Below are positions 7,719 to 62,757 of a stretch of 64,000 bases of DNA, piece after piece (position 1 is the first letter of the stretch; each line of letters starts with the position of its first letter). The stretch lies in contig NZ_CP043930.1 of NCBI RefSeq assembly GCF_009720525.1, positions 6,212,001 to 6,276,000 on the forward strand, given 5' to 3'. The DNA comes from Gimesia benthica. GTDB taxonomy: Bacteria > Planctomycetota > Planctomycetia > Planctomycetales > Planctomycetaceae. The translations under genes were made by a program, and so were the position numbers. The notes beneath the pieces are model-generated. The model worked only from the letters and a program-made list of their open reading frames with translations. It was not told where the DNA came from and ran no database searches.

Positions 7719-8743
7719 ATGTTACGCACACCTGATCAAAGACGTGGATTTACACTGATTGAACTACTGGTATCTATCTCTATTATCGCTGTACTGATAG
7801 CACTACTGCTACCTGCAGTTCAGCAGGCGCGGGAGGCCGCCCGGCGTTCCCAGTGCAAAAACAATCTCAAGCAGGTCGGTTTGGCGCTGCAGAATTATCA
7901 CAGCGACTACCTGGTATTTCCGCTGGGGGTCCGGAACCAGTACCTTGGTTTCGGGTCGAGCTGGTGGGTGGGGCTGCTGCCTTATCTGGAATATGGCACT
8001 CTTTACAACATGTATGATCACGACGTCGCCAGCTGCGGGTTCACGCCTTTGAATCCGGCGCTGGTGGCAGATGTCAGCATGCCGGTCATGCTGTGCCCGT
8101 CGAGTCCGCTGGATGCCCGTGTCAATGGTGTTCTGATCCCTGGGGTAAATATGACAATGCCCCACTACGCAGGAATTTCCGGGGCGACGAATACCGGTAC
8201 TGTGATGGGCGATCAACTTCACTTTGCGGATGATCTGTTTCCTTCCACGGATAACTCACTTTGCTGTCTGCCCCACCTGGATGGGCGGGTTGCCGCGGGG
8301 GGCGTGCTGATTCCCAATCGGACCATCGCGATTCGAGACATCACAGACGGTTCATCAAATACGATTGTGGTGGGAGAGATCTCCAGCTCGGTGCTGAAGT
8401 CAGGGGTCAGTCTGCGTGTCGACGCGGGGAATCCGAGTGGCTGGGCCGCGGGAACGGTGAGTGTCGGGACGCCTCCCAAATGTTGGGGCCCGGTGGTTTC
8501 ACGCCAGCGTTTCCGGTGTTCAACCTGACAACGGTGCGTTATCCGATTGGAACGAAGGATGGCGGGCTGCCGGGCATTCATACGGATGGGGGGCCTAATA
8601 ATCCACTGATTTCAGCGCATAGTGGCGGCACACAGTGTCTGTTGACGGACGGCTCGGTACGTTTTCTGAGTGAGAATATGAATCTGGAAACATTGAAAAA
8701 TCTATGTACCCGCAATGACGGGAAGGTTCTCGGAGAATATTAA
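7719..8743 (+). pseudogene. DUF1559 prepilin-like (H-X9-DG) protein, frameshifted
   Basis: Planctomycete secreted protein with a type II pseudopilin N-terminus: the cleavage/methylation motif GFTLIELLVSISIIAVLIALLLP, then the signature QQAREAARRSQCKNNLKQVGLALQNYH. The first frame runs to 8528 but loses similarity at about 8480. The family's C-terminal part ([13 protein letters not shown]... HSGG...[14 protein letters not shown], containing the H-X9-DG motif) continues in the next frame to the stop at 8743. One missing base within about 8475-8490, next to GGGG and CCC runs, would rejoin the two. Restored length would be about 341 residues, normal for the family. No Shine-Dalgarno sequence is obvious. 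It may be a recent pseudogene or an assembly error. Confidence 0.8.
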
Positions 8744-8867: not shown

Positions 8868-9623
8868 ATGAACCGAATGAAACTGACTTTGTTAACGGGA
8901 GCGTGTTTCCTGCTCTGCTGCCTGGCGGGGAATACGAATACGAGCGTGGCTGGCGAAAAGAAGGCACCAGTAAAACCAGATCCCAAGCTGATTACCTGCG
9001 TCTGCAAACAGGTTCCCCTGGGACCTGTCGGAGGGAATCTCTGGGCCTGGATGGCGTATCGCTATCAGTACGAAACGGACTGTTCTGCAGCGACCGCAGT
9101 TTCAATCATTGAGTACAGTGAATATACCACCGCTTACCCGGAAACGTTATGTGTGGGCTCAGGGAATTGTGGCGACCAGTGTTCGGAAAGAAAGAAATCT
9201 GACGAGAAAAAATCGAAGGGTGAACCGGTAATTAACCACTATCTGCATCCATTGCCGGCGAATCAGAATGCGAAAGTCGATTTGTATCCGCCTCAGACGA
9301 AGTATCATTACGATATCGTGCAGACCCGTTATCTGAAATTCAAAGACGAGATGCCAGGCAAACACAAATATGCCAAGGTATTCTTCCTCTGCGTTTCCGA
9401 ATCCCCGAATCCGACCGAGCAGCCCGACGCGGTTTACTTCTGGTACGGGTTTGAAATTGAAAAACCGACGGGTGTGAAACCGATCACTCTGCCTTATGGC
9501 TATGCAAGCAGAAGAGCCGATTATCAGGCAAGTGACAGCATGGGAGGCTGGAGCCAGGGGAAATGTGGCCACTTCGGGTTTCTGGATTACGGTGGATCGC
9601 AGTACCTGATTCGCTTTAAGTAA
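8868..9623 (+). CDS. Secreted Cys-containing protein of unknown function
   Basis: A 251-residue protein with a clear signal peptide (MNRMKLTLLTGACFLLCCLAG) and a mature part containing about eight Cys. The ATG at 8868 is preferred over 8850 because an AAAGG site lies ten bases before it and the signal peptide then begins with basic residues. The middle carries a CVGSGNCGDQC stretch and a Lys-rich linker; the C-terminal half is rich in Tyr, Trp and Gly. No known domain is recognised. It follows the DUF1559 gene on the same strand with about 120 bases between and ends in a terminator, so the two may be co-transcribed. Possibly exported and disulfide-stabilised. Confidence 0.75.
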   Translation: MNRMKLTLLTGACFLLCCLAGNTNTSVAGEKKAPVKPDPKLITCVCKQVPLGPVGGNLWAWMAYRYQYETDCSAATAVSIIEYSEYTTAYPETLCVGSGNCGDQCSERKKSDEKKSKGEPVINHYLHPLPANQNAKVDLYPPQTKYHYDIVQTRYLKFKDEMPGKHKYAKVFFLCVSESPNPTEQPDAVYFWYGFEIEKPTGVKPITLPYGYASRRADYQASDSMGGWSQGKCGHFGFLDYGGSQYLIRFK

Positions 9624-50257: not shown

Positions 50258-51601
50258 ATGAGTAAGTCAACCATCAAGGAAGCCGATCATAACGTCGATT
50301 TCGCGACATTACAGGATGTCTGGCGATCGCGCGGGTATGGCAATCTGTTGGACATCGGTCCGAATGGTTACACGGTTTATGAAGAGACCAGCGTTAGCTG
50401 TCTGCCTGTTTTTGAAGGTTCATTGGACGAACTGGCCGAACACTACGTCGACCTACAGGTTTCGCCGCGCGGGCAGGCATTCAGTGCACGCCGGGCTGTG
50501 GGCTTGACACGACATGGCTTTCGCCGTCTCAATGCGTTGCCACATGGCTGCACTGTGGCTGATGCAGAAAGACGGTTCGATCCTGAATACAACTTCGAGG
50601 TTTTCTGGCACACGTTTGCTGAACACTACGCTTTGTTTGAATTGAAGGGAGTCGATTGGCAGTCTATGTACTCGACCTACCGCCCTATGGTTGACGCGGA
50701 GACTGGACACCGCCGTTTGTTTCAGATCTTCGTAGAAATGTTGAGGCCGCTGAGTGATGGACATGTCCAATTACACACGACCTGCGGCCACTTCAACGCC
50801 GGCGCAGCCGTGCCTCTACACGACCGGCTGGCGGCCGAGTTGGACAAGGCGGATGATGCACGCGAGGTCTCGTCCTATCTTGCAGAGCTTCGCGAATGGC
50901 TGCTGGATACGATTCGAGAAGACTATCTCCAATCTCGCTCACGACGATCCGGCAGCCGCCACCTGGAATGGGGACAGCTCGATGATGCCACCGGATACCT
51001 TGCCATCCGTGCCATGGCCGGGCTATCGGGTCATGTGGGCCAACCCCGGCTCGATTTGCAGGCGGTGGATGCAGCCATGGAGCAAGTGATGGAGGAAATG
51101 GGCCATCTTGCCACGCTGGTTGTCGATTTGCGGGGCAACGGCGGAGGCTATGACGCAGTGGCTCTGCGACTGGCCTCTTATTTGACGGATCGCAAACGAT
51201 TGGCCTTCAGCAAATCGGCACGCCACGGTACAAGCTATACGGGTAAGCAGAACGTTTACGTCGAACCGCGGGCAGACAGGCGATACGCGGGCCGACTGGT
51301 CATTCTGACCAGCGGCCTGACCGCGAGCGCTGCCGAGGTCTTCGTCCTGGCGCTGTTGCAACACCCACGTCTTACTCTGATTGGCGAGCCAACTCATGGG
51401 ATTCTGTCCGACGCCATGGAGCGCCATCTTCCCAATGGATGGTTCATGAGCTTGTCCAACGAGATCTATCAGGCTTTCGACGGAGAACTGTACGAGAACG
51501 ACGGGATTCCACCGCACGTCGAAATCCCGTTCCTGGATCAGCGCAACCGCGAAGCAGGACGCGACCCCATGTTGGATTTTGTAATGGACATATCGCCGTA
51601 A
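50258..51601 (+). CDS. S41-family (tail-specific/tricorn-type) serine peptidase, apparently cytoplasmic
   Basis: A 447-residue protein with an N-terminal non-catalytic part and a C-terminal S41 domain: YLAIRAMAGLSG, LVVDLRGNGGGYDAVALRLASYL and LVILTSGLTASAAEVFVLALLQHPRLTLIGEPTHG, in which the catalytic Ser lies in TASAAE. No signal peptide or PDZ domain is obvious, unlike CtpA-type proteases, so it resembles the tricorn-core or retinoid-binding-like subfamily. A GGGAGAG site precedes the ATG. It shares a short divergent promoter region with the HDAC-like gene; the two may be co-regulated. The substrate is unknown. Confidence 0.85.
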   Translation: MSKSTIKEADHNVDFATLQDVWRSRGYGNLLDIGPNGYTVYEETSVSCLPVFEGSLDELAEHYVDLQVSPRGQAFSARRAVGLTRHGFRRLNALPHGCTVADAERRFDPEYNFEVFWHTFAEHYALFELKGVDWQSMYSTYRPMVDAETGHRRLFQIFVEMLRPLSDGHVQLHTTCGHFNAGAAVPLHDRLAAELDKADDAREVSSYLAELREWLLDTIREDYLQSRSRRSGSRHLEWGQLDDATGYLAIRAMAGLSGHVGQPRLDLQAVDAAMEQVMEEMGHLATLVVDLRGNGGGYDAVALRLASYLTDRKRLAFSKSARHGTSYTGKQNVYVEPRADRRYAGRLVILTSGLTASAAEVFVLALLQHPRLTLIGEPTHGILSDAMERHLPNGWFMSLSNEIYQAFDGELYENDGIPPHVEIPFLDQRNREAGRDPMLDFVMDISP

Positions 51602-52336: not shown

Positions 52337-53046
52337 CCCGTACAAAACAAGTTTCATAACGACTCGTATATGAGTTAATTCCTGAGGTTGTAAAACCGAA
52401 GAAACTTACACCCTCTACGTGAAATCTGGATTCTGCCTGGGTCATGAAACAGGAAAAAGCATTCGTAACCACATTGTCGGCCGGGATAAGAATCCGAACT
52501 GCCTGATCCATGGTCGAGACACAAAGTTCACCACCGAGTTCAAGCAGTTCCTGAACAACAAAGGCATCCAGCGTAAGAAGCTCCGATCCTACCTACCGAT
52601 CTGAATGCCCGGGTCGATAGATTTGTACAAACGATTAAATACGAAGTCTTGAACCATTTCATCGCTTTCGGTCAACGGCATTTCGATTATCTCGTTTCTG
52701 AATTCGTTGATTATTACAACAAACATCGAGCGCAAAGTTCACGAGAACATCTACCGCCCTGCTGTGCCGAGCCGCCATCGGAATTCGAGACAATCAGGCT
52801 CGCTAAAATCCACTGCAAGGAACATCTCAGAGGGCTGATCGAGTCGTACGAGCAGATCGCGGCATACATCAATTCGAGTACAAGTCATTTCTTCACGCTC
52901 AGCGTACGTACGTTCGCTCCGAAAAAGTCACAACCAACAGTCCTTCACGGTCTTCGTGCCCTGACCCACGTCAGTCCTTTTACAAGTTTTTGTCTTCAAA
53001 GATCAATTAACTATGGGACTTAACGGGTGGCAGTCTTTTTGTACCC
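52337..53046 (+). mobile_element. Integrase-type insertion sequence remnant (copy B) with broken transposase
   Basis: The left end CCCGTACAAAAC matches the scar at 42985; the right end ...CAGTCTTTTT-GTACCC matches copy A in inverse orientation. Within 52419-53023 the plus strand encodes rve-core pieces in two frames: LIHGRDTKFTTEFKQFLNNKGIQRKKLRSYLP, then (after a frameshift near 52600) NARVDRFVQTIKYEVLNHFIAFGQRHFDYLVSEFVDYYNKHRAQSSREHLPP. The HTH part and the first catalytic Asp are absent. Confidence 0.7.
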
Positions 53047-53146: not shown

Positions 53147-53173
53147 AAAAGCGGAGAGAGGGGGACTCTCCGC
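53147..53173 (-). terminator. Second minus-strand hairpin; possible tRNA-Ser-like attachment remnant
   Basis: On the minus strand GCGGAGAG and CTCTCCGC flank a 7-nt loop and are followed by TTTT, as in a terminator. The sequence GAGTCCCCCTCTCTCCGC also resembles the 3' end (T-arm side plus acceptor) of a tRNA-Ser gene, a common attachment target of tyrosine recombinases. Either reading is possible. Confidence 0.45.
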
Positions 53174-53309
53174 CTGGGTGGTTTCAAAGCTGATTTCAAC
53201 GCGACGAAAATAAACCCAATGGTGCGTAACTAATTGAAAATAAAACAGTTGCTTACTTCGATATTTTTCGGTTCGGCAACCACACGCTTGATCCGGCTGT
53301 CTGGCGTTT

Positions 53310-53337
53310 GCACCAGTTGTGCACCAGCGGTGCACCA
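53310..53337. repeat. Three GCACCA direct repeats spaced 11 bp next to the integrase stop
   Basis: GCACCAG at 53310 and 53321 and GCACCA at 53332, exactly 11 bases apart, begin 8 bases beyond the integrase stop codon. They could be recombinase arm-type or core sites. Confidence 0.5.
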
Positions 53338-53344
53338 ACCGAAT

Positions 53345-54913
53345 TTAAACATTCTGACCACCTTCAGGTAATGTATCTTGTACTGGATTCGATCGACTTT
53401 GACAAGCACTTATTTTTGATGTTACAAGTTGTTCGGTGCGAGTCTTAATCGCATCCAGCAGGGGACTGATCTTATTGTAATACTTAACGATTTCCTGCTT
53501 AGGGTTCAGGGGGGAATACACATTGATTATATCATTCACGGTGTGTTCTGTTAGGTATCGTAATTCTAATAAGGGGATTCCAGCCTCTTTCATCTCCTGT
53601 GTAATTGAGCCGCGTAGGTCATAAGGTTTACCTGGCTCATCTTTCCCAATCACCTGACGCAATTGTTTTCCCACATAGGCACTGGTAACACCACCTGCTT
53701 TGTTTAAGAAATCACGAAATGCAGCTTTCCGATCCTGGCTATTTCGAACTTTGCCTTTTGGTAACTTAGCCAATTCATCTTGATACTGTTGTTCTAAATC
53801 TGGAGTTGAATTAAACGTATATTTTCTTGATGTTTTACCCTGACATGTTTTCCGATTTAAGAAAAGCGGTCCTTCAACACGCTCTCCCACCAACGTCTGT
53901 AACAAAGGCATCAGTTCATCAGGTAATGGAAATTGAACATCAACTTTTCCTTTGTTGAAATCTGATCCACCCAATCGTGTCCCAAAATGTACCTGCTGCT
54001 TTTCGAAGTCCACATCACTGACGAGGAGTCCTGCGACATCTTCTAAACGGATTGGTAAAACTAAAAGTATGCTCAGCGACATGAATTGCCAGTCATCCAT
54101 GGCCTTTAAGAGCTTAATCCTTCGCTCAAGTGGAAAAACACAATCACGAAGAGGGTCCTTACTGAATGATTTTTCGAAAAGCTCATGGGTAATAGGATTG
54201 ACGAAATCGGGTGGCAAATTGCGTACATCTGCTCTACAGGCCCAGTTAAGGGCCATCCTTAAGGTATCCCCACAGTGTTTGATATGCCGTGAGGACATCA
54301 ATTTAGTGGGAGCGTTTGCACTACCATTTCTCGTTATTTTACGGTTGAACAAATATTCAAGTGATTCAAGAGCAAAGTCCCTATCGAGTGACAGTGCAGT
54401 GGGCCATCTTTTAAGTGATCGAGCTAATTCCGAAAAATCCAGATAAGGCGAAAGCCGATTATAATAGGTTCTGGCAGTCTGTTCTCCACAGACTTTACGT
54501 TTTTCGATCAAGAATCTATCACAAAGTTCGCGCAGAGTCAGATTTGGAATTCTTCTGGTTTTTAATATCTGCTTACGGGCGTCACTCGGGGGCACAAATG
54601 TGCCAGAGTCTAGCCTATGCAACAGTTCTCTCAGCTTAGATTTGGCTTCCTGTGGATCTGTTCCTAGTGTTTCTCCAAACGGTCTTCTTTCAAAACGGCC
54701 ACGCGCCAGATATTTCCCATCTCTTTCGTAGATGTGGACGTTGACACCAACTCTTGTTTCATGTGTATGATCTCCCATCAGTTTTGAGCGAACCATCTTG
54801 CGAGATTTAGACGGTGACTTTCGGGCGGTCTCTAAAGAATCATTAGGAGTGGGATCCTGACATTCTTTTTCCCGATAAGGCTGGTTAGAATTATTCTGCA
54901 CATCTGTGGACAT
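53345..54913 (-). CDS. Site-specific tyrosine recombinase (integrase)
   Basis: A 522-residue phage-integrase-family protein. The N-terminal 60 residues are polar. An arm/core-binding region follows (LTLRELCDRFLIEKRKVCGEQTARTYYNRLSPYL). In the catalytic domain the first Arg lies in LVLPIRLEDVAGLLVSDVDFEKQQV. Box II is PYDLRGSITQEMKEAGIPLLELRYLTEHTVNDIINVYSPL, which contains the second Arg, the EHT His and the nucleophile Tyr; the usual HxxR is YxxR here. Such recombinases mark the end of integrated islands. The CBASS genes lie on its upstream side, so it likely mobilised or still borders the defence island. Terminator-like hairpins follow its 3' end. Confidence 0.9.
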   Translation of the reverse strand: MSTDVQNNSNQPYREKECQDPTPNDSLETARKSPSKSRKMVRSKLMGDHTHETRVGVNVHIYERDGKYLARGRFERRPFGETLGTDPQEAKSKLRELLHRLDSGTFVPPSDARKQILKTRRIPNLTLRELCDRFLIEKRKVCGEQTARTYYNRLSPYLDFSELARSLKRWPTALSLDRDFALESLEYLFNRKITRNGSANAPTKLMSSRHIKHCGDTLRMALNWACRADVRNLPPDFVNPITHELFEKSFSKDPLRDCVFPLERRIKLLKAMDDWQFMSLSILLVLPIRLEDVAGLLVSDVDFEKQQVHFGTRLGGSDFNKGKVDVQFPLPDELMPLLQTLVGERVEGPLFLNRKTCQGKTSRKYTFNSTPDLEQQYQDELAKLPKGKVRNSQDRKAAFRDFLNKAGGVTSAYVGKQLRQVIGKDEPGKPYDLRGSITQEMKEAGIPLLELRYLTEHTVNDIINVYSPLNPKQEIVKYYNKISPLLDAIKTRTEQLVTSKISACQSRSNPVQDTLPEGGQNV

Positions 54914-55092
54914 CAGAAATCACCGGATAGCTGGAAGAAAATATTAGATCCGGCAGAACTATTCCAAGATGGTCGGAGGATATCGAGGTAAACGTTTTAG
55001 AATTCGTTTACCTCAATTTGGGAGTCATTGATTTGATTATGTTTATTTATACATTCGTGTATATTGAAGCGTACTGTTGAAGGAGGCTCAGT

Positions 55093-56202
55093 GTGTCCCA
55101 GAACTCGAAGATTCAAGAGGAGAACTATACTGCATGGGAAGAGTTGAAGAAGCGTTATCCCGATCGATTGTGTCTGGATGAAGAAGTGATTTATGCCTTG
55201 CCAGTTGATTTTATAAGTGCCCTGAATAAACATCTTCCCGGTCTGTGGACTAAAAAAGATCTTCATTTTGAGTATGACCTAAATGAGATCGCAGGGATGG
55301 GGCTCTTTTTAAAACAGCCTTTTTGGTACCCCCTGCTAAAAGAATATTTTCCCCCTACTAACGATGGCACCCGCCGTTTCCTGGCTGAACATACTAGAAT
55401 CAGTAATAACCTTCGTTTAACGATTGAAGAGTACTTGAGACGCCATGATTGCTCTGATTTCATGATCAAAAAATATTTTAAGGAGGAAGAGAAGTATAAG
55501 TTACAGGCTCAGCAACGCCAAATTGGATATGCTGGCTGGTTGGTGACAGATCCCGGGTTTCAGCTTTCCAAGGCAGGGTTTGTAGGGGAGTGGTGGGAGC
55601 AGATTGAACAACAGGGTGAGTTCCCTAGTGTCCCTCCTATGAAGATGCTAAGAGACTCAACTCCGCTTCCCCAAAGCCAGAGACCTTATTATGCAGGTTA
55701 CACTCAGTTTTATTACGAATGGAGCCTGGAAAGGCTGGCAACACTACATCTGCCAGTACCAATGCATTCGAATCCCGTCGGGGCTTCCCAATATAGCGAG
55801 GAAGTTAGTGAAGCGGCAGGACTGTCGCTGTTTGTACCCTGGTACCTACTTGCCGATCAGGATCTGAAACTGCAGGACATCGCAAATCATCATCTGATGT
55901 ACGGACATAAAAAACACCTTGAGGGTTGGATCAGCAAAAAAAATCGCGAAGAAGATAAGTGGGGATATAACAGGTATTCGATCATGCTGAAAATGTTTGT
56001 TTTCCTAAAATGTGGTTTGTATCCCAGATACAATAAGCGTCTGATTCGCAAGATGAGGAAGATCGACGAAGCGTTTACAGAATTCATGGAGGGGGCAGAA
56101 CTCGATCCATTAGAGCTGGAAAAAAAATTTCAGAGTACTCGAAAAACCAGACAAGAATTACAACGCCGATTGAAAAAATGTCAGGAAGCAGTTGAAACTT
56201 GA
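55093..56202 (+). CDS. Unknown 369-residue protein between integrase and CBASS
   Basis: Starts at GTG with AAGGAGG six bases upstream, so it should be well translated. The protein is soluble, rich in Tyr, Trp, Lys and Glu, with no signal peptide. It has a hydrophobic SLFVPWYLLADQDLKLQDIANHHLMYGHKKHLEGWI region, then KMFVFLKCGLYPRYNKR, and ends in a charged coiled coil (LELEKKFQSTRKTRQELQRRLKKCQEAVET). No nuclease, ATPase or transposase motif was recognised. It is divergent from the integrase and convergent with capH-capP. Its position inside a defence island makes a defence or cargo role possible, but this is inferred only from location. Confidence 0.75.
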   Translation: MSQNSKIQEENYTAWEELKKRYPDRLCLDEEVIYALPVDFISALNKHLPGLWTKKDLHFEYDLNEIAGMGLFLKQPFWYPLLKEYFPPTNDGTRRFLAEHTRISNNLRLTIEEYLRRHDCSDFMIKKYFKEEEKYKLQAQQRQIGYAGWLVTDPGFQLSKAGFVGEWWEQIEQQGEFPSVPPMKMLRDSTPLPQSQRPYYAGYTQFYYEWSLERLATLHLPVPMHSNPVGASQYSEEVSEAAGLSLFVPWYLLADQDLKLQDIANHHLMYGHKKHLEGWISKKNREEDKWGYNRYSIMLKMFVFLKCGLYPRYNKRLIRKMRKIDEAFTEFMEGAELDPLELEKKFQSTRKTRQELQRRLKKCQEAVET

Positions 56203-56522
56203 AGTCAAAATACAGAATCTTAGTATAAAGATTCTGAGAATTCATTGTCTCATTCAATCGGATTGGATGAACAATAGATAAGCGTTTTCCATCCTATTTA
56301 TTATGACACGTTTTTGGCCAAAATTTAGGTCAAAAGTGCTACTGATAAGGATAAGGCGATCAAGACAGAGACGATGGGGAAAAGATGACTGCCACCAGGT
56401 GAGAAATAGCAAAAATATGCCTCACTCAGCTAAATATTACCAGATTTCTGTACCGGAACCTGGATGTGCCTCTAAATACTCAGTTTAGCAAGGCGTTTTT
56501 GAGGTTATTTGAAGCAGTGTGA
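56203..56522. other. Spacer between convergent genes
   Basis: A hairpin AGAATCTT-AGTATA-AAGATTCT (56214-56235) lies just after the preceding gene but lacks a T run. No gene is supported in the rest. Confidence 0.4.
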
Positions 56523-56654
56523 TCACTCGTCTCCAGCTGAATCCGGACAGCCGCACTGAAAGTCTATCAATTGAATCATATCCGCTTCGATGTCAGGAAC
56601 CGGTTCGGCCAACGTGTTTCTTTCAAGTTGAATGTCACGATGTAAGCGGGCCAT
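56523..56654 (-). CDS. Possible 43-residue protein following capP
   Basis: The minus strand from ATG at 56654 reads MARLHRDIQLERNTLAEPVPDIE, ADMIQLIDFQCGCPDSAGDE and stop. It begins 8 bases after the capP stop, so it could be translated by coupling. It has a C-G-C pair near the end and an amphipathic start. No ribosome site and no family recognised, so coding status is uncertain. Confidence 0.35.
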   Translation of the reverse strand: MARLHRDIQLERNTLAEPVPDIEADMIQLIDFQCGCPDSAGDE

Positions 56655-56662
56655 CAACGCAA

Positions 56663-57607
56663 TTACAGGGGACGTAGAATGGCGACGATGCTTGAGGCGC
56701 CGTCGGGACCGGTTGCTTCTTCAGATGTGAACACGGGCAATGCATGAATACGAAAACGTCCGTGAAGTGTCCCAAGATCGAGGTGACAATGTCCGTCCTG
56801 AATAGTTTGACTAACTGATGCAGCATGGATTGGACCTACGCTCGGAACCGACTTGTTTTTGGGGATGTGACTGGTGCCGACGCGTTCGAATGCATCGTTC
56901 AAGATGGCATAGTCGACTCGCAACATTGGTGACGGCATCCGCAATGCTTCCCCGAACAACGGTTTTTGACGCCGGTTGCGGTTGACGAGCCGTTGTTCGG
57001 TGGGTTTCAGTTTCCAGCTGAAAAACACAGCCGCCATCGGTTCGGGATGCAGTTCGACCAAACGTCGAACCGTGGCATCGCGGGAGGCGATATAATAGTT
57101 TGCAAGCTCTGCGATGTTTGCTGCTGAGAGTTCGAAGCTGTCGATTCGATCACGAAACCAGGGATCGGGAAACATCAGCTCCGAAGCAGCAACATCACAC
57201 AGCGTTTCGAGCAGGTCTTCTGGGGCTGCCCAGTTGCGTTCGGTCCCCTTTCGACACCGGACGGCCAGTTGGTATTCCGGAAATAGAGTGTGTCCAATTT
57301 CGTGGCCGATGCTGAACCGTTGGCGTGATTCCGGCCGCGATTTGCTTACTCGTAATACAACTCGCCCATCAGCTTCCGGAGCAATCTCGGAATCCGGGCT
57401 GAATCGCGGATCGTCATCCGACCAGTGTAGTCCGCGTACACTGGCAATGGCCTTGAGGTTGAACGGGGGTTGTTCGCCGAAGAGCGAAACGTAGTCCGTG
57501 ATGACACGGCGTGCCTTCACCCTGACTGCCTCAAAGGGATCCTCCTCTCCGGTTTCATCGATAATGGCCTGAACGTGTTTATGGTAATTCTGGCGGCCCG
57601 GCGACAT
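56663..57607 (-). CDS. capP: ImmA/IrrE-type zinc metallopeptidase, CapP-like regulator of CBASS
   Basis: A 314-residue protease. I chose ATG at 57607 (AAGGGG 11 bases before it, four bases after the capH stop). A much longer frame reaches 57766 but its extra residues overlap capH. The zinc site is HEIGH (His102, Glu103, His106) with downstream Glu143 in AASELMFPDPW, the usual third ligand. The C-terminal half resembles the sensor domain of ImmA/IrrE proteins. In described CBASS loci CapP is activated by single-stranded DNA and cleaves the repressor CapH, switching on immunity after DNA damage. Pairing with an XRE gene and divergence from a CBASS operon support the assignment; cleavage itself is not shown. 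Confidence 0.82.
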   Translation of the reverse strand: MSPGRQNYHKHVQAIIDETGEEDPFEAVRVKARRVITDYVSLFGEQPPFNLKAIASVRGLHWSDDDPRFSPDSEIAPEADGRVVLRVSKSRPESRQRFSIGHEIGHTLFPEYQLAVRCRKGTERNWAAPEDLLETLCDVAASELMFPDPWFRDRIDSFELSAANIAELANYYIASRDATVRRLVELHPEPMAAVFFSWKLKPTEQRLVNRNRRQKPLFGEALRMPSPMLRVDYAILNDAFERVGTSHIPKNKSVPSVGPIHAASVSQTIQDGHCHLDLGTLHGRFRIHALPVFTSEEATGPDGASSIVAILRPL

Positions 57608-57611
57608 CGTC

Positions 57612-58064
57612 TTACCCCTTCGTGATTCTTTTGAGTGTCCTATACAGGTCATCCCAATCATCGCGGGATTTCGGTTGTCCACCACGAAACCGCATCGCTG
57701 CGAGATCACGAATCTCTTCTTCGGACAGCTTTCGGTCGGTTTTTTCCATCCATTCACAGAATTCACGTAACGACTTACTGATTTCGATATTCCTGTCGTC
57801 GGCCTGGACAGTCGGAAGCCCCAGAAGCTCGGCGATAGTAGTTTTCAGAGCGTTCGCGATGCGAAGCAGGACATCTGCTGACGGTTTCTTTTCACCCTTC
57901 TGGTCGTTTTCGAGTTCCCAGATGTAAGTCTTTGATACCTCGGCCTGACTGGCTAATTGCTCCAGAGTGAGGCCGGCTTGTTTACGGGCCATCTGGATTC
58001 GATGAGCCAGTGACATCACCGACTCTTCGGAACGTAAATCGTTTTGTTGCGAACTTTTTTCCAT
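57612..58064 (-). CDS. capH: XRE-family repressor, CapH-like
   Basis: A 150-residue regulator. The HTH at about residues 20-75 (RIQMARKQAGLTLEQLASQAEVSKTYIWELENDQKGEKKPSADVLLRIANALKTTIAELLG) is a classic lambda-repressor-like fold. The C-terminal part (NIEISKSLREFCEWMEKTDRKLSEEEIRDLAAMRFRGGQP) is helical and may be the dimerisation region that holds the CapP cleavage site in known systems. ATG at 58064 is used; a shorter start at 58016 is possible. It is the first gene of a capH-capP operon, divergent from the CBASS operon. The intergenic inverted repeats at 58140-58167 are its likely operator, so it should also repress itself. Confidence 0.82.
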   Translation of the reverse strand: MEKSSQQNDLRSEESVMSLAHRIQMARKQAGLTLEQLASQAEVSKTYIWELENDQKGEKKPSADVLLRIANALKTTIAELLGLPTVQADDRNIEISKSLREFCEWMEKTDRKLSEEEIRDLAAMRFRGGQPKSRDDWDDLYRTLKRITKG

Positions 58065-58126
58065 TCCAAGAGTCTATCAAACATCATTCGTCTTGGCAAG
58101 ATTCTTGTTCGCTGGGGTTGAATAAG

Positions 58127-58154
58127 TTGGTGCATTTGGTATATTCGTTATAGT
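58127..58154 (+). promoter_or_regulatory. Candidate promoter of the CBASS operon
   Basis: TTGGTG (58127-58132) and TATAGT (58149-58154) separated by 16 bases, about 75 bases upstream of the DUF2188 gene. The -10 box lies inside the candidate operator. Confidence 0.45.
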
Positions 58155-58167
58155 TGAATATATATTC
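58140..58167. promoter_or_regulatory. Candidate CapH operator: overlapping inverted repeats
   Basis: TATATTC-N9-GAATATA (58140-58162) has perfect 7-bp arms, and it overlaps a second palindrome GAATATATATTC (58156-58167). ATATTCGTT is repeated directly at 58141 and 58162. The site covers the proposed -10 box of the CBASS promoter, so a bound XRE dimer would block it. Confidence 0.55.
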
Positions 58168-58229
58168 GTTGCGACGATTCGATTACGAATCTTCGCACAG
58201 TCACTCTCATTACTTCGAAAGGCGCGATC

Positions 58230-58463
58230 ATGACGAAGAAGGACTATCACGTTGTTCCACAAGGAGAAGGCTGGGCACTGAAGCGGGAAAATGCTCAAAG
58301 AGCATCATCGTTACACTCGACTCAGGCCGACGCCATCACAGCGGGTAAAGAACTTGCAAAGAAACAACAAACCGAACTGGTCATCCACCGGCCGAATGGC
58401 CAGATCAGGGATTCAGACAGCTATGGCAACGATCCAGTACCGCCGAAAGACAAAAAACACTGA
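58230..58463 (+). CDS. DUF2188 protein, first gene of the CBASS operon
   Basis: A 77-residue protein matching DUF2188: KDYHVVPQGEGWALKRENAQRASSLHSTQADAITAGKELAKKQQTELVIHRPNGQIRDSDSYGNDP. A GAAAGG site precedes the ATG. The family is small, basic to neutral, found in many bacteria, and has no agreed function. DUF2188 is not one of the recognised CBASS components as far as I know. Its position between the CapH-controlled promoter and the effector gene, with 44 bases to the effector start, implies co-expression with the immune genes. It could be an accessory factor or a passenger. Confidence 0.8.
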   Translation: MTKKDYHVVPQGEGWALKRENAQRASSLHSTQADAITAGKELAKKQQTELVIHRPNGQIRDSDSYGNDPVPPKDKKH

Positions 58464-58507
58464 AACGTCAGTCGTCGCCTTTGCATCTTCTTAGTAGAGA
58501 AAATCCT

Positions 58508-59641
58508 ATGTCAGTCACTTACATTCCCGATCCGACTAAGCTGTGCCTATGGGGAAAAGCCGCTGGCCGCTGCCAGTACGACGGCTGTAATCTTGCACTC
58601 TACCGAGACGGTTTGACGCAGTTTGAGTTTAATAAGGCATACATTGCCCACATCATTGCTGACAAGCCTGGAGGGCCGCGTGGCGATCCAGTGCTGTCAG
58701 AGAAGCTGAAAAGCGATCTGAGCAACCTGATGTTACTCTGCGATGCGCATCATCGATTGGTGGACATTGCAGATGTTGAGGGGCACCCGGTAGATCGTCT
58801 CCGACACATGAAGGACGAGCACGAGAAACGCATCGAACTGGTGACATCTATCGCTCCCGACCGGCAGTCACATATCGTCTTGTACGGTGCACGTATCGGT
58901 GATCACGACGTGCCGCTCACTTTCCAGAAAGCAGCAGCTGCACTGGTTCCGGAACGTAGTCCCGCGAATCCCAGGCCCATAGAGCTGAGCCTTAACAATC
59001 GCAGTATCAGTGATGCTGAAAATCGCTACTGGGAAATGGAATCGGAACATCTGCGGCGGCAGTTCCAGACTGAGGTGAAGTCCCGGCTCAGGCCAGATGA
59101 TATCCAGCATCTGTCGATCTTCGGGCTGGCGCCGATACCACTGCTGATCGAGCTTGGCAGGTTGCTTTCGGATATTCCAGCAACAGATGTGTTTCAGTTA
59201 CATCGCGAACCGCCGGACTGGGGCTGGCAGAAAAACCCGGACGCTTTTAAATATGAAGTGGGCTGCGACGGTGATGAGACATCTCAGACGGTTGCCCTCA
59301 TACTCGGGCTCAGTGCTGACGTCGTGCTGGATCGCGTCCGGCCGATTGTCGGTGAACAAGCGGCCTGCTGGACCATAACGCACAGCAACCCGGGCAACGA
59401 CTTCCTTAAGTCTCGTGAGCAGCTCCAGCAATTCAGGGAGACGCTACGTTTTGTCTTCAATGAGATCAAGAAAAAACACGGCGAAGAAGCGGAACTTCAT
59501 CTGTTTCCGGCAGTCCCCGTAGCTTGTGCAATAGAGGTCGGGCGCGTGTGGATGCCCAAAGCAGACCTACCGATCGAAGTCTACGACCAAAATCGGAGCA
59601 CGGGGGGATTCAGTCGAGCACTTCGTATTTCCAATACCTAA
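58508..59641 (+). CDS. cap5: CBASS effector Cap5-like: HNH nuclease fused to SAVED domain
   Basis: A 377-residue effector that, in studied relatives, cuts double-stranded DNA when its SAVED domain binds a cyclic oligonucleotide, killing infected cells. The N-terminal HNH domain shows the zinc Cys pair RCQYDGC (Cys22, Cys27), the catalytic AHII His48, Asn73 and the CDAHH block (Cys78, His81, His82). After a linker the SAVED domain runs from about residue 155 to the end. It includes the FGLAPIPLLIELGRLLSDIPATDVFQLHREPPDWGW block and the C-terminal HLFPAVPVACAIEVGRVWMPKADLPIEVYDQN block, the typical SAVED signature. I chose ATG at 58508 over 58481, since the extra nine residues are atypical. The CD-NTase gene follows after 15 bases. 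Confidence 0.9.
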   Translation: MSVTYIPDPTKLCLWGKAAGRCQYDGCNLALYRDGLTQFEFNKAYIAHIIADKPGGPRGDPVLSEKLKSDLSNLMLLCDAHHRLVDIADVEGHPVDRLRHMKDEHEKRIELVTSIAPDRQSHIVLYGARIGDHDVPLTFQKAAAALVPERSPANPRPIELSLNNRSISDAENRYWEMESEHLRRQFQTEVKSRLRPDDIQHLSIFGLAPIPLLIELGRLLSDIPATDVFQLHREPPDWGWQKNPDAFKYEVGCDGDETSQTVALILGLSADVVLDRVRPIVGEQAACWTITHSNPGNDFLKSREQLQQFRETLRFVFNEIKKKHGEEAELHLFPAVPVACAIEVGRVWMPKADLPIEVYDQNRSTGGFSRALRISNT

Positions 59642-59656
59642 CTAAGCGGAGAAATT

Positions 59657-61222
59657 ATGGCTGACAACCGTTTCCTCATTGTTAATACGCTCCTGCGGGA
59701 GATCGCCGAAGAACTCGACATTTCACCGTCGAAGTACAAGGAAGCGGTGGAACGATACACCAGTGTCGGTAACTGGCTGGAAGATGGCGAGTATCCAGCC
59801 GTTGTCGCCACACCGGTCATCTATCCCCAGGGATCGTTTCGGTTGGGGACGGTCGTAAAACCGCTGCGGGGCGGAGTTGAAGTAGAATACGACATCGATC
59901 TGGTGTGTAATTTGCCGGTGCGGGCGGGTGATACGTCGGCCCGGCAGGTGAAACATTCGGTGGGCGATCGCCTGAAAGAGCACGGCACCTACAAAAAACT
60001 CCTGACTAAGGAAGGACGCCGGTGCTGGACGCTGCTGTACGCGGAGGACGATGGAATCGGATTTCATCTAGATGTCCTGCCTTGTATTCCGAATCCGCAC
60101 CAGTTGATCGGCACGGAACACGGCCTGAAGGCCGTCAGCCTCACAGACCGAAACGACGATGGAGCAGTATACGGCTGGGGGGCCACTAATCCTGCTGGTT
60201 ACGCTGACTGGTTCTTCGGGCGACAGCGGCCGGTCTTTACCCAGGTGGCTGCGTTGAGGAAAACCGAACTTCAACGCCAGCACTCGCACATCTTCGCCAG
60301 CGTCGATGACGTTCCAGATCAGCTGGTGCGGACGCCTCTGCAAAGGGCGATTCAGATCCTGAAGCGACACCGAGACGTGCGCTTTTCGGGAGACGATCTT
60401 GAAGGTGACAAGCCGATTTCGATGATCATTACCACGCTGGCAGCCACCTGCTATGAACAAGAAACTGACGTTTTTTCAACGCTGGCCACATTTCTGGACC
60501 GGGTGCAGCGATACGCTGACACGGGAGTGATCAAATGCATTGACGAGCAGTGGTACATACCTAATCCGGTGAATCCAGATGAGAATTTTGCTGATCGCTG
60601 GAATGAAACCGGCAGTCGCAAACCTGATGCATTCTTCAAGTGGCTGCACTGGGTCCAAGAAGACATTGATGAGCTTCTCAACGCAGCTACTCCACTGGAA
60701 CTGAGTGACAGATTGCAGAAGGCATTCGGTGCCTCTGCAGGCAGCCGGGTTGCAAATAAGTATTCAGGAGCGATGCCCGGGGCACACCAACAACCGCAAT
60801 CTCTATTCGGTCGTGTTACCAGAGGGTTTCTGCGTTTTGATGTTGGGCACCGGCAGGCACCTCAATGGCATATCTCCAGTACGAAATACTCGGCTTCGGT
60901 TCAAGCTCGCTACACTCGACGGGGCTTCAGACCGACACCATTTGTCAGCAATTCCTCTCCGCTGCCTAAAGGTGTTGATTTGCGTTTCGAGGCCAACACG
61001 AATGTGCCGAAGCCATACAAAATGCATTGGCAGGTGGTTAATACTGGTGTAGAGGCTGCCAGAGCTGGCCAGTTGCGAGGCGACTTCTACGAGAGTAACA
61101 AGTCCGGGAAGCAGCGAACTGAGTCAACCAAATTCCCAGGGATGCATTGGGTGGAATGTTTCGTTGTCAAGAACGGTGTCTGTGTCGCGAGAAGCGGTGA
61201 ATTCGTCGTCAATATTGAATGA
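59657..61222 (+). CDS. cdn: CD-NTase (cGAS/DncV-like nucleotidyltransferase) with AGS-C-like C-terminal domain
   Basis: A 521-residue immune signalling enzyme, predicted to make a cyclic di- or trinucleotide on phage sensing. A GGAG site is well placed before the ATG. The nucleotidyltransferase motif QGSFRLGT is at residues 58-65, and catalytic acids Asp79 and Asp81 lie in EYDIDLVC with Asp139 in GFHLDVLPC. All three metal ligands are intact. The helical core (PLQRAIQILKRHRDVRF... KPISMIITTLAATCY) follows. The final 110 residues (PLPKGVDLRFEANTNVPKPYKMHWQVVNTG... FYESNKSGKQRTESTKFPGMHWVECFVVKNG) match the AGS-C sensor domain found on some SMODS enzymes. No E1/E2 (Cap2) or JAB (Cap3) gene is present, so the system looks like type I CBASS. 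Confidence 0.92.
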   Translation: MADNRFLIVNTLLREIAEELDISPSKYKEAVERYTSVGNWLEDGEYPAVVATPVIYPQGSFRLGTVVKPLRGGVEVEYDIDLVCNLPVRAGDTSARQVKHSVGDRLKEHGTYKKLLTKEGRRCWTLLYAEDDGIGFHLDVLPCIPNPHQLIGTEHGLKAVSLTDRNDDGAVYGWGATNPAGYADWFFGRQRPVFTQVAALRKTELQRQHSHIFASVDDVPDQLVRTPLQRAIQILKRHRDVRFSGDDLEGDKPISMIITTLAATCYEQETDVFSTLATFLDRVQRYADTGVIKCIDEQWYIPNPVNPDENFADRWNETGSRKPDAFFKWLHWVQEDIDELLNAATPLELSDRLQKAFGASAGSRVANKYSGAMPGAHQQPQSLFGRVTRGFLRFDVGHRQAPQWHISSTKYSASVQARYTRRGFRPTPFVSNSSPLPKGVDLRFEANTNVPKPYKMHWQVVNTGVEAARAGQLRGDFYESNKSGKQRTESTKFPGMHWVECFVVKNGVCVARSGEFVVNIE

Positions 61223-61419
61223 GACATGCAGTACAGAATGTACAATCTGCTGGTATCAGGGGCAGCGACGTCCACGTTGCTGTGCCTGGATACCGCACAG
61301 GCACAGTGGCGGCAGCAGCCATAACGTTCAGGGATTTCGACCTGATCGGCCGTCGGAGAGTGGGCCGAATGTGTTCCAAGGCCTGGGATTGGTTGCACCA
61401 GCCAAAGTAAACAGGCGGA

Positions 61420-62757
61420 TCACTCCGTATAAGCTGGATCCGCACAATGCAGGTTCTGGGGCTCATGTCGAGAGTCAAATAATCGTACAGTGATAAATAC
61501 AGTCAACCATGCTATTAGTAAACCCAGAAACAACGACCGCGCAACGAGAACGTTATAGAGACTATGCAGTCCCATCGAAGCTAATACTGAAAATAGAATC
61601 AGAAACGTATATTCAAAGATGTCTGTTGGCGGTTTATGTGAATTATCGTCCGGATTTTCTATAAGATGATAAAAACAGGCTGCAGAAATTGTTGTCCAGC
61701 AGCCATGCAACATTGCCACTGAGAAGAATCGCAGCAAATAGATCGAGAGTGGCATTTCCTGGGGCTGATACATCTGGGAATGGTACATCACTCCTTCCAC
61801 AATACCGAAGCCGAGCCCTGACAGGGCTCCCACAAACAGGCCTCTCTGCTTCCAGTCTCCTGCGGTAGATTTTGCCACGTACATTACAGGAATGAATTTC
61901 AATACTTCCTCGCATAAAGCGACACTCGAGAACATTGCAACAAAATGGTAAAAGAAAGGTAGGCTCGCTCCCAGATCATCTGGAGAGATCTGGTTGTAGC
62001 CATTTCCGATTAACCAGGTTAGACAGAGAAAAATTTTGAAACGCCCTCCGCCGGTCTTCATGACTTCCGAAAATGGAGTACCTGCATATTTGGTAGCCAT
62101 CTCCTGGAAGAAAAAGAGCAACGGAATTGCAATGATGAATGTAAAAATGAAGGAACCGATCCCGATCCCGTAATCATTTTCCCCGGATTTAATCAATACA
62201 GAGAAGAGAATGCCACCGCAGATTGTCGCAATGATTGCAAGAAACCAGGGACTATCAGGAGTCGAGCCAAAGTTTGGTAGCAAAAACGGAACCATTATCA
62301 TCAGGTATAAGATCCAGCCCGGGTTCATGTATTGTTTTAAATCCAGGATATTCTGGAGATAGGGTTCGAATGCGTCATTTGCTCCGTAGGCAAAATTGGG
62401 TGGAGGTTCTGATGAGTTGCTAGGCTGCCCCTCTGTATTTTCTGAGATTGATTTCCTTTCTCCCCTTGATTGAAGGGTTAACTTTTCCGGAGCCGAATTT
62501 GCCTGAACACTATCCGTGATGGAAGTAAGAGGAGGAGGTGGTGGAAGTCGTGATACGGCAACAGAAATAGCGTCTGCGAACACTTCCTTCCACTCTCTAA
62601 GTGGTTTCCACTCATTCCCACCAACTGGACAAGCAAGGTTATCCGGAAAGAGCTCAAGTGTCCTGATACGTTCGCGTACGATTTCAACGTCAAATGGTCC
62701 GTCTGGTATCTCGGCTTTTGCGATCCACCATTTGGGATCGACTGGTCCAACTGACAT
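61420..62757 (-). CDS. PrsW-type intramembrane protease with N-terminal GYF-like domain
   Basis: A 445-residue membrane protein. The first 60 residues (KWWIAKAEIPDGPFDVEIVRERIRTLEL... EWKPLREWKEVF) form a GYF_2-like domain, then a Pro-rich linker (PPPPPL), then about eight membrane helices of the PrsW/CAAX-like protease family. Characteristic motifs: EEVLKFIPVMYVAK (Glu-Glu-x3-Lys), GFGIVEGVMYH and, further on, LHGCWTTISAACFYH and MGLHSLYNVLVA, all predicted active-site helices. PrsW in Bacillus cleaves an anti-sigma factor. It is convergent with the CD-NTase gene. Whether it belongs to the defence island is unknown. The next gene upstream has a similar linker. Confidence 0.85.
   Translation of the reverse strand: MSVGPVDPKWWIAKAEIPDGPFDVEIVRERIRTLELFPDNLACPVGGNEWKPLREWKEVFADAISVAVSRLPPPPPLTSITDSVQANSAPEKLTLQSRGERKSISENTEGQPSNSSEPPPNFAYGANDAFEPYLQNILDLKQYMNPGWILYLMIMVPFLLPNFGSTPDSPWFLAIIATICGGILFSVLIKSGENDYGIGIGSFIFTFIIAIPLLFFFQEMATKYAGTPFSEVMKTGGGRFKIFLCLTWLIGNGYNQISPDDLGASLPFFYHFVAMFSSVALCEEVLKFIPVMYVAKSTAGDWKQRGLFVGALSGLGFGIVEGVMYHSQMYQPQEMPLSIYLLRFFSVAMLHGCWTTISAACFYHLIENPDDNSHKPPTDIFEYTFLILFSVLASMGLHSLYNVLVARSLFLGLLIAWLTVFITVRLFDSRHEPQNLHCADPAYTE

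Follow-up and report, generated by a model that had tools for sequence, protein, structure and literature searches.

A CdnG-Cap5 defence locus of Gimesia benthica with a probable proteolytic damage switch, and a small DUF2188 gene that recurs at the head of defence operons

It is an open question how a lethal defence is held in check until it is triggered. Here we analyse a stretch of 64,000 nucleotides from the planctomycete Gimesia benthica (contig NZ_CP043930.1, positions 6,212,001 to 6,276,000; hereafter the window, to which all coordinates refer), which carries a cyclic oligonucleotide-based antiphage signalling system (CBASS) headed by a small gene of the DUF2188 family and faced by a pair of regulatory genes. 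The closest described effector system is the CdnG-Cap5 operon of Asticcacaulis sp. (AsCdnG; AsCap5, PDB 7rwk): residues D220, R310, K347 and D349 of AsCap5 are important by mutation, and operons of this kind may include an additional third gene, the family of which has no Pfam number (PMC8568899). For the regulators, the closest described pairs are CapH-CapP, with a solved CapP from Thauera (PDB 7t5t), and DdrO-PprI (IrrE) of Deinococcus. PprI is activated by single-stranded DNA (ssDNA) (PMC10904395), and the same is reported for CapP and CapW (PMC13373217). The small gene has a counterpart in PADLOC as the phage-defence candidate PDC-S16, which stands there without a description. We consider it likely that the window holds a damage-derepressed CdnG-Cap5 CBASS, the first gene of which is portable and accompanies damage-switched defence operons whatever their effector.

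The initial annotation had described a complete type I CBASS with a divergent CapH-CapP switch in a planctomycete. All five open frames are confirmed in the window, two genes on the minus strand facing away from a three-gene operon on the plus strand; the start given earlier for the locus, 56523, lies 140 bp past the stop of the protease gene. The second operon gene (58508 to 59641, plus strand; 377 amino acids [aa]) encodes Cap5, an HNH-SAVED effector nuclease, with matches to Pfam SAVED (2.2e-52) and the PADLOC endonuclease effector (6.6e-155). Its best solved relative is AsCap5 (3.4e-104, nearly the whole length aligned), and the four AsCap5 residues named above are kept as D222, R314, K351 and D353. 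A homologue scan seeded with Cap5 alone gave no confirmed match. The third gene, which starts 15 bp after the Cap5 stop (59657 to 61222, plus strand; 521 aa), encodes a cGAS/DncV-like nucleotidyltransferase (CD-NTase; Pfam DncV-like NTase 4.2e-7, PADLOC cyclase 5.4e-162) with an intact set of catalytic residues, G59-S60, D79, D81 and D139, all invariant in a six-sequence alignment. Its best solved matches are 9woo, named cyclic GMP-AMP synthase (1e-54), and SmCdnG (8hsb, 1.2e-37), and by these matches, rather than by an all-clade tree, the enzyme appears CdnG-like. The profile search proposed with the initial annotation thus placed the 59657 protein in the CD-NTases and the 58508 protein in HNH-SAVED, and with an adjacent Cap effector and open frames the CBASS locus is real. 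Type I also agrees with the gene content, as Pfam and PADLOC detected no E1/E2/JAB, HORMA/TRIP13 or other ancillary gene in the frames scanned around the operon, and the planctomycete setting is in line with the relatives of the locus. What the earlier description lacked is the C-terminal AGS_C sensor domain of the CD-NTase (residues 396-521; Pfam AGS_C 4.9e-35). The window operon resembles that of Asticcacaulis in the Cap5 alignment, the four SAVED residues and the CdnG-type best match of its CD-NTase, and differs from it in having no third gene after the CD-NTase, in the fused AGS_C and in the DUF2188 gene in front. Because a second genome of the genus (G238) carries the same five genes, the locus is not a chance arrangement. 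Taken by itself, the CBASS locus is ordinary and exemplifies well a type already described; what is new lies in the DUF2188 gene at its head and in the exchange of the accompanying switches.

The first of the two divergent genes (56663 to 57607, minus strand; 314 aa) encodes a CapP/PprI-like ImmA/IrrE metalloprotease with HEIGH at residues 102-106 and a C-terminal domain after residue 190. Residues F98, H102, E103, H106 and E134 are among those invariant in an alignment of 17 sequences (the window protein and 16 relatives), and Cys118 is aligned with the cysteine that forms the zinc switch of the solved CapP. The protein matches Pfam Peptidase_M78 (4.9e-10) and PADLOC capP (1.5e-23, in a collection with no PprI profile beside capP for comparison). 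Searches against individual proteins gave stronger matches to PprI (6.4e-8) and IrrE (1.1e-6) than to the only solved CapP (2.6e-3), and a Foldseek search with the predicted model (mean predicted local distance difference test [pLDDT] 84.7) retrieved 8sln, PprI bound to ssDNA (7.5e-13), 3dte (5.4e-12) and CapP 7t5t (6.5e-8). The second gene (57612 to 58064, minus strand; 150 aa, with an alternative ATG start possible at residue 17) encodes a CapH/DdrO-like XRE repressor that matches Pfam HTH_31 (2.1e-12) and, over residues 17-147, PADLOC capH (3.6e-18). It is alignable with full-length Deinococcus DdrO over residues 16-147, that is, over the helix-turn-helix (HTH) and the C-terminal domain (2.6e-10). 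The match to 7t5u, titled helix-turn-helix protein and presumably CapH, covers residues 18-74 (3.6e-10); since the 7t5u chain has only 69 residues, it is silent on the C-terminal part of the repressor. Judged by these alignments, the pair is CapH-CapP-like and equally PprI-DdrO-like. The CapH-CapP label given earlier stands insofar as a divergent XRE and ImmA/IrrE pair adjoins the CBASS and both proteins match the PADLOC capH and capP profiles; it needs qualification in that the protease is nearer to PprI than to the solved CapP of Thauera. From the Deinococcus pair, to which both proteins are similar (the protease by sequence and fold), the window pair differs in adjoining a defence operon and in seeming, on the evidence of a candidate operator, dedicated to one promoter.

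The promoter in question is sigma-70-like (TTGAAT-16-TATATT, 58118 to 58145, plus strand; a consensus match only) and precedes the DUF2188-Cap5-CdnG operon. A candidate repressor operator, TTCGTTATAG (58144 to 58153, plus strand), overlaps its -10 box. The same sequence is present in the divergent intergenic region of G238 and of the three orthologous loci with an IrrE-type protease (L089, L091 and L092), in each of which it occurs twice, the copies 37 bp apart, and it is absent from the divergent intergenic regions of both orthologues with a WYL-type regulator (L090 and L093). Among 252 loci searched, TTCGTTATAG is found in 10, of which four represent the same site in the window genome or G238, three are L089, L091 and L092, and the other three (L019, L070 and L245) have it at places that we take for chance. 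Because TTCGTTATAGTTGA, a 14-mer extending TTCGTTATAG, has a single exact site in the 8.03 Mb genome, the one in the divergent intergenic region, the repressor looks dedicated to its own promoter, provided that the candidate operator is correct; when one mismatch is allowed, this guessed operator has 6 sites in the whole genome vs 4 for the reversed control. The operon leader further contains an inverted repeat (58170 to 58197) with 12-nt arms, one mismatch and a 4-nt spacer, which none of 100 Markov shuffles equalled and of which no counterpart was seen in the intergenic sequences of the relatives. It could be either a second operator or an RNA hairpin.

The first operon gene (58230 to 58463, plus strand) encodes a protein of 77 aa that matches Pfam DUF2188 (5.7e-26) and both PADLOC PDC-S16 profiles (~1e-34). 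The predicted fold is beta-beta-beta-alpha-beta-beta (mean pLDDT 85), and a fold search with the model gave no confident match. In an alignment of 59 sequences, E49, R60, S64, Y65, G66 and D68 show no variation and the SYGNDP tail almost none; since a pattern in that tail served to find these sequences, the conservation of the tail is overstated. The CapK-CapS system includes YegP; the fold of DUF2188 shows a weak resemblance only to YegP/DUF1508, and no relationship in sequence was seen in comparisons with two planctomycete DUF1508 proteins, used as single-sequence templates (hhalign probability below 1%). No fusion partners were detected, as the six longer planctomycete frames that were scanned hold DUF2188 only. 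The tandem-repeat DUF2188 proteins of some planctomycetes (e.g., L038 and L039) look like a separate branch, and in a Nitrospirota metagenome-assembled genome (MAG; L096) two DUF2188 genes lie face to face within 1.2 kb (8001-8231 and 8951-9181). Among titles and abstract openings, with few subscription papers covered, we found no publication linking DUF2188 (PF09954) to phage defence and none on planctomycete CBASS of this locus type; a literature search of similarly limited coverage returned no mention of PDC-S16.

The initial annotation treated the DUF2188 lead gene as merely less usual, a view that does not hold, given that the gene recurs ahead of many defence operons with regulators of the damage-switch type. 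The genomic sample comprises the 80 best of 586 confirmed matches to a 14-sequence DUF2188 alignment, all retrieved with a single pattern from the C-terminal tail. An IrrE-family protease is encoded within 3 kb upstream of DUF2188 in 47 of these 80 loci (38 on the opposite strand, 9 on the same strand) or, after merging loci with alignable flanks, in 35 of 66 non-redundant groups, and is found elsewhere in the 80 loci only three times (density ratio 60; binomial p 6e-29, the loci not being fully independent). A CapW-like WYL regulator lies within the same distance upstream in three loci; the WYL profile was built from three seeds and recovered only those three, so that it may overlook WYL genes that are more divergent. 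Upstream sequence of 2 kb or more is available for 71 loci, of which 46 have IrrE, 2 have WYL and 23 have neither. Of the 80 loci, 19 encode a CD-NTase: 16 with IrrE upstream, 2 with WYL and 1 with neither. Both the connection to damage-switch regulators and the position in the operon are new with respect to the PDC-S16 entry.

The association was also approached from the side of the CD-NTase. A sample chosen irrespective of DUF2188 consists of 26 loci, 13 planctomycete (with G238 standing for the window locus) and 13 from plasmids, the latter picked by rank or variety from 116 records, with Mesorhizobium huakuii and M. ciceri excluded as DUF2188-picked. DUF2188 is present in 2 of the 5 loci with an adjacent IrrE and in none of the 21 without (hypergeometric p ~0.03, calculated by hand; an IrrE about 6 kb away in L028 was by choice counted as not adjacent). 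CBASS loci with a CapH/CapP-like pair and no DUF2188 also exist, e.g., in Burkholderia ubonensis. Among viral contigs of IMG/VR, DUF2188 was confirmed in 82, of which 80 were kept (L169-L248); in these loci, 12 IrrE frames were counted in the 3 kb upstream of the gene and 26 in other places, and the 12 of these 26 that were listed are encoded on the opposite strand at an upstream distance of about 3.2 kb. Strong among the genomic loci, the pairing with IrrE is thus weaker among the viral ones at a distance of 3 kb. The viral-locus IrrE frames listed are mostly on the opposite strand at about 3.2 kb or 0.7 kb upstream, a placement that looks like that of prophage control regions.

Several observations weigh against a general connection between DUF2188 and damage switches. 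The 80 loci are those that match the window protein best and do not amount to a random sample, and the seeds of the IrrE and WYL profiles came from upstream genes of these very loci, which favours upstream finds. With 23 of the 71 loci lacking both regulators, the pairing is common and not obligatory, and no known damage regulator was detected among ten upstream proteins scanned from such loci. Most of the 26 CD-NTase-centred loci have no DUF2188. In a phylum sample of 392 genomes, DUF2188 is present in 38 and a CD-NTase match at E 1e-20 in 14, the window genome included, and the two adjoin only in the window genome and G238. Of 30 DUF2188 loci of the phylum picked by Pfam, each about 3 kb long, six have IrrE upstream, and two of the six are the window locus in its two genomes; the association with regulators belongs to the DUF2188 type of the window. 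Control of DUF2188 by LexA was considered and rejected: gamma-type sites occur in 7 of 79 upstream stretches vs a background of 5.9%, and GAAC-type sites likewise in 7 of 79 vs 9.6%, neither clearly enriched.

The genes behind DUF2188 are diverse. The flanking frames were taken mechanically as the longest open reading frames, so that some are spurious; of 203 downstream frames (76, 70 and 57), 74 were picked by hand for profile search, and those set aside included many near-duplicates, most of the CD-NTases and many short frames. On the basis of clustering and profile search of representatives, the first gene after DUF2188 is Cap5 in five loci, all planctomycete, and elsewhere a patatin-type phospholipase (a cluster of 8), a two-transmembrane CBASS effector (4), a type II methyltransferase (3), ThiF/E1-like or other proteins, with many frames left unassigned. 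A plasmid search seeded with the DUF2188 protein produced 491 records, and in 8 of the 10 stretches that were then read the gene was present. Two Mesorhizobium plasmids have it ahead of a phospholipase CBASS with divergent IrrE and HTH genes; a Sphingomonas plasmid ahead of a TIR gene, again with divergent IrrE and HTH; and a Synechocystis plasmid ahead of a multiubiquitin-ThiF operon with a divergent WYL gene. On a Marinibacterium plasmid an IrrE-type frame lies 1.9 kb upstream on the opposite strand, and at the Nitrosococcus, Rhizobium etli and Klebsiella plasmid loci the profiles found no IrrE or WYL regulator. In five further loci (L128, L143, L159, L166 and L168), a short IrrE gene followed by an exonuclease gene lies upstream of DUF2188 on the opposite strand, the exonuclease domains (RNase_T and Exonuc_X-T_C) being assigned by Pfam for L128 and by clustering for the other four; a nuclease able to make or remove ssDNA next to an ssDNA-type sensor is suggestive.

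The planctomycete orthologues of the whole operon offer a natural comparison. Three of them, from Rhodopirellula maiorica (L089), Rubripirellula obstinata (L091) and Rhodopirellula rubra (L092), combine DUF2188-Cap5-CdnG with IrrE, and two, from Roseiconus nitratireducens (L090) and a Planctomycetales MAG (L093), carry a WYL regulator in the corresponding position (Pfam WYL 5.1e-10 for L090; L093 by clustering). Identity to the window proteins is 61-64% for Cap5 and 60-64% for the CD-NTase, and in the CD-NTase tree the two WYL-type loci group with L089, L091 and L092 (93/95, an open fork), the window standing apart. The regulator was likely exchanged while DUF2188 stayed in place. Because operon contents vary and the exchange of the regulator leaves DUF2188 behind, the gene is tied to no single effector or regulator.

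The genes, residues, architecture and association described above are observations; each biochemical step of the scheme that follows we infer from better-studied relatives. At rest, to judge from the conserved anatomy, the XRE repressor would sit on TTCGTTATAG over the -10 box and keep the operon low. By analogy with PprI-DdrO and CapP-CapH, ssDNA derived from a phage or from damage would activate the IrrE-type protease, whose cut in the DdrO-like C-terminal part of the repressor would free the promoter. The CD-NTase would make a cyclic dinucleotide, probably 3',2'-cGAMP if AsCdnG-AsCap5 is a guide, and this would stack the SAVED domains of Cap5, upon which the HNH domain would destroy DNA and the infected cell would die. 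In this way a nuclease CBASS of a well-understood kind would come under a proteolytic switch that resembles PprI/DdrO and has a concrete candidate operator. The DUF2188 protein would be the first product induced and, because it is retained when the effector or the regulator changes, its target is most likely a feature that these loci share, such as damaged or phage DNA, the ssDNA signal or a phage component, and not any single effector or regulator. A small uncharacterised gene is repeatedly first in operons that are alike in damage-switch control and unlike in effector; if it is functional there, it would represent an overlooked shared step of induced immunity. Quite tentatively, DUF2188 might even be a general third component of ssDNA-triggered immunity, induced first from CapP- and CapW-type switches, compatible with any effector and addressed to a common damage or phage signal. 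We would sooner doubt than assert this extension; were it true, removal of DUF2188 would alter the behaviour of many unrelated defence operons.

Other roles of the small protein have to be weighed against that of an effector-independent companion. It could be a feedback part of the switch that shuts off or boosts the response by binding to the protease, to the WYL regulator or to ssDNA, as might be expected of the first gene after the divergent promoter in the window locus and its orthologues, and of a gene that follows both IrrE and WYL switches, regulator types that are both reported to sense ssDNA (PMC13373217). However, a protein retained on the exchange of IrrE for WYL is not tied to one regulator, and DUF2188 is also present in the 23 loci with neither, so that we regard feedback as possible without being probable. 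A passive leader, that is, a small first frame that sets the expression of the operon, or a hitch-hiker of defence islands, would agree with a short gene found ahead of many different genes and with the lack of a recognised switch in those same 23 of 71 loci; such a role appears unlikely to us, as the invariant residues and the SYGNDP tail, even if the conservation of the latter is overstated by the pattern search, exceed what it would seem to need.

DUF2188 might instead be a small stand-alone defence factor that shares the same promoters by happenstance. Its listing in PADLOC as a phage-defence candidate would fit, as would two loci (L160 and L163, with 3-8 kb of downstream sequence) that have no same-strand frame of at least 60 aa starting within 450 bp, and the SIR2-, AAA- or nuclease-type genes encoded opposite in some loci. 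However, the presence of DUF2188 in IMG/VR viral contigs indicates that it is not a host-defence gene only, and its fold has no confident match; we find this explanation rather doubtful. That the locus is silent or decayed and makes no working CBASS is very improbable: all frames are open, the key residues are kept, and the locus is retained in a second species with a CD-NTase 98% identical. A damage-derepressed CBASS with a portable first gene hence remains the reading that we prefer.

The window genome is a single contig of 8.03 Mb, and a block 93% identical in the window and G238 extends from 53149 to 62707. A tyrosine recombinase/integrase gene (53345 to 54913, minus strand; Pfam Phage_integrase 5.8e-8) adjoins the left end of this block, and the locus may be part of an island bordered by an integrase. 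Between the integrase and the protease lies a gene for a 369-aa protein of no recognised family (55093 to 56202, plus strand), with a 371-aa frame at the matching place in G238. To the left of the island, the gene at 50258-51601 has weak partial matches only in the rest of the genus, and a short frame at 52649-53023, just outside the left end of the shared block, reads like what we take to be a transposase remnant. On the other side, the CD-NTase gene is followed on the other strand by a gene for a PrsW-family intramembrane protease (61420 to 62757, minus strand) with an N-terminal GYF_2-like stretch below the Pfam cut-off. A search with this protein yielded 9 matches in the window genome, several of them partial, and 8 in G238.

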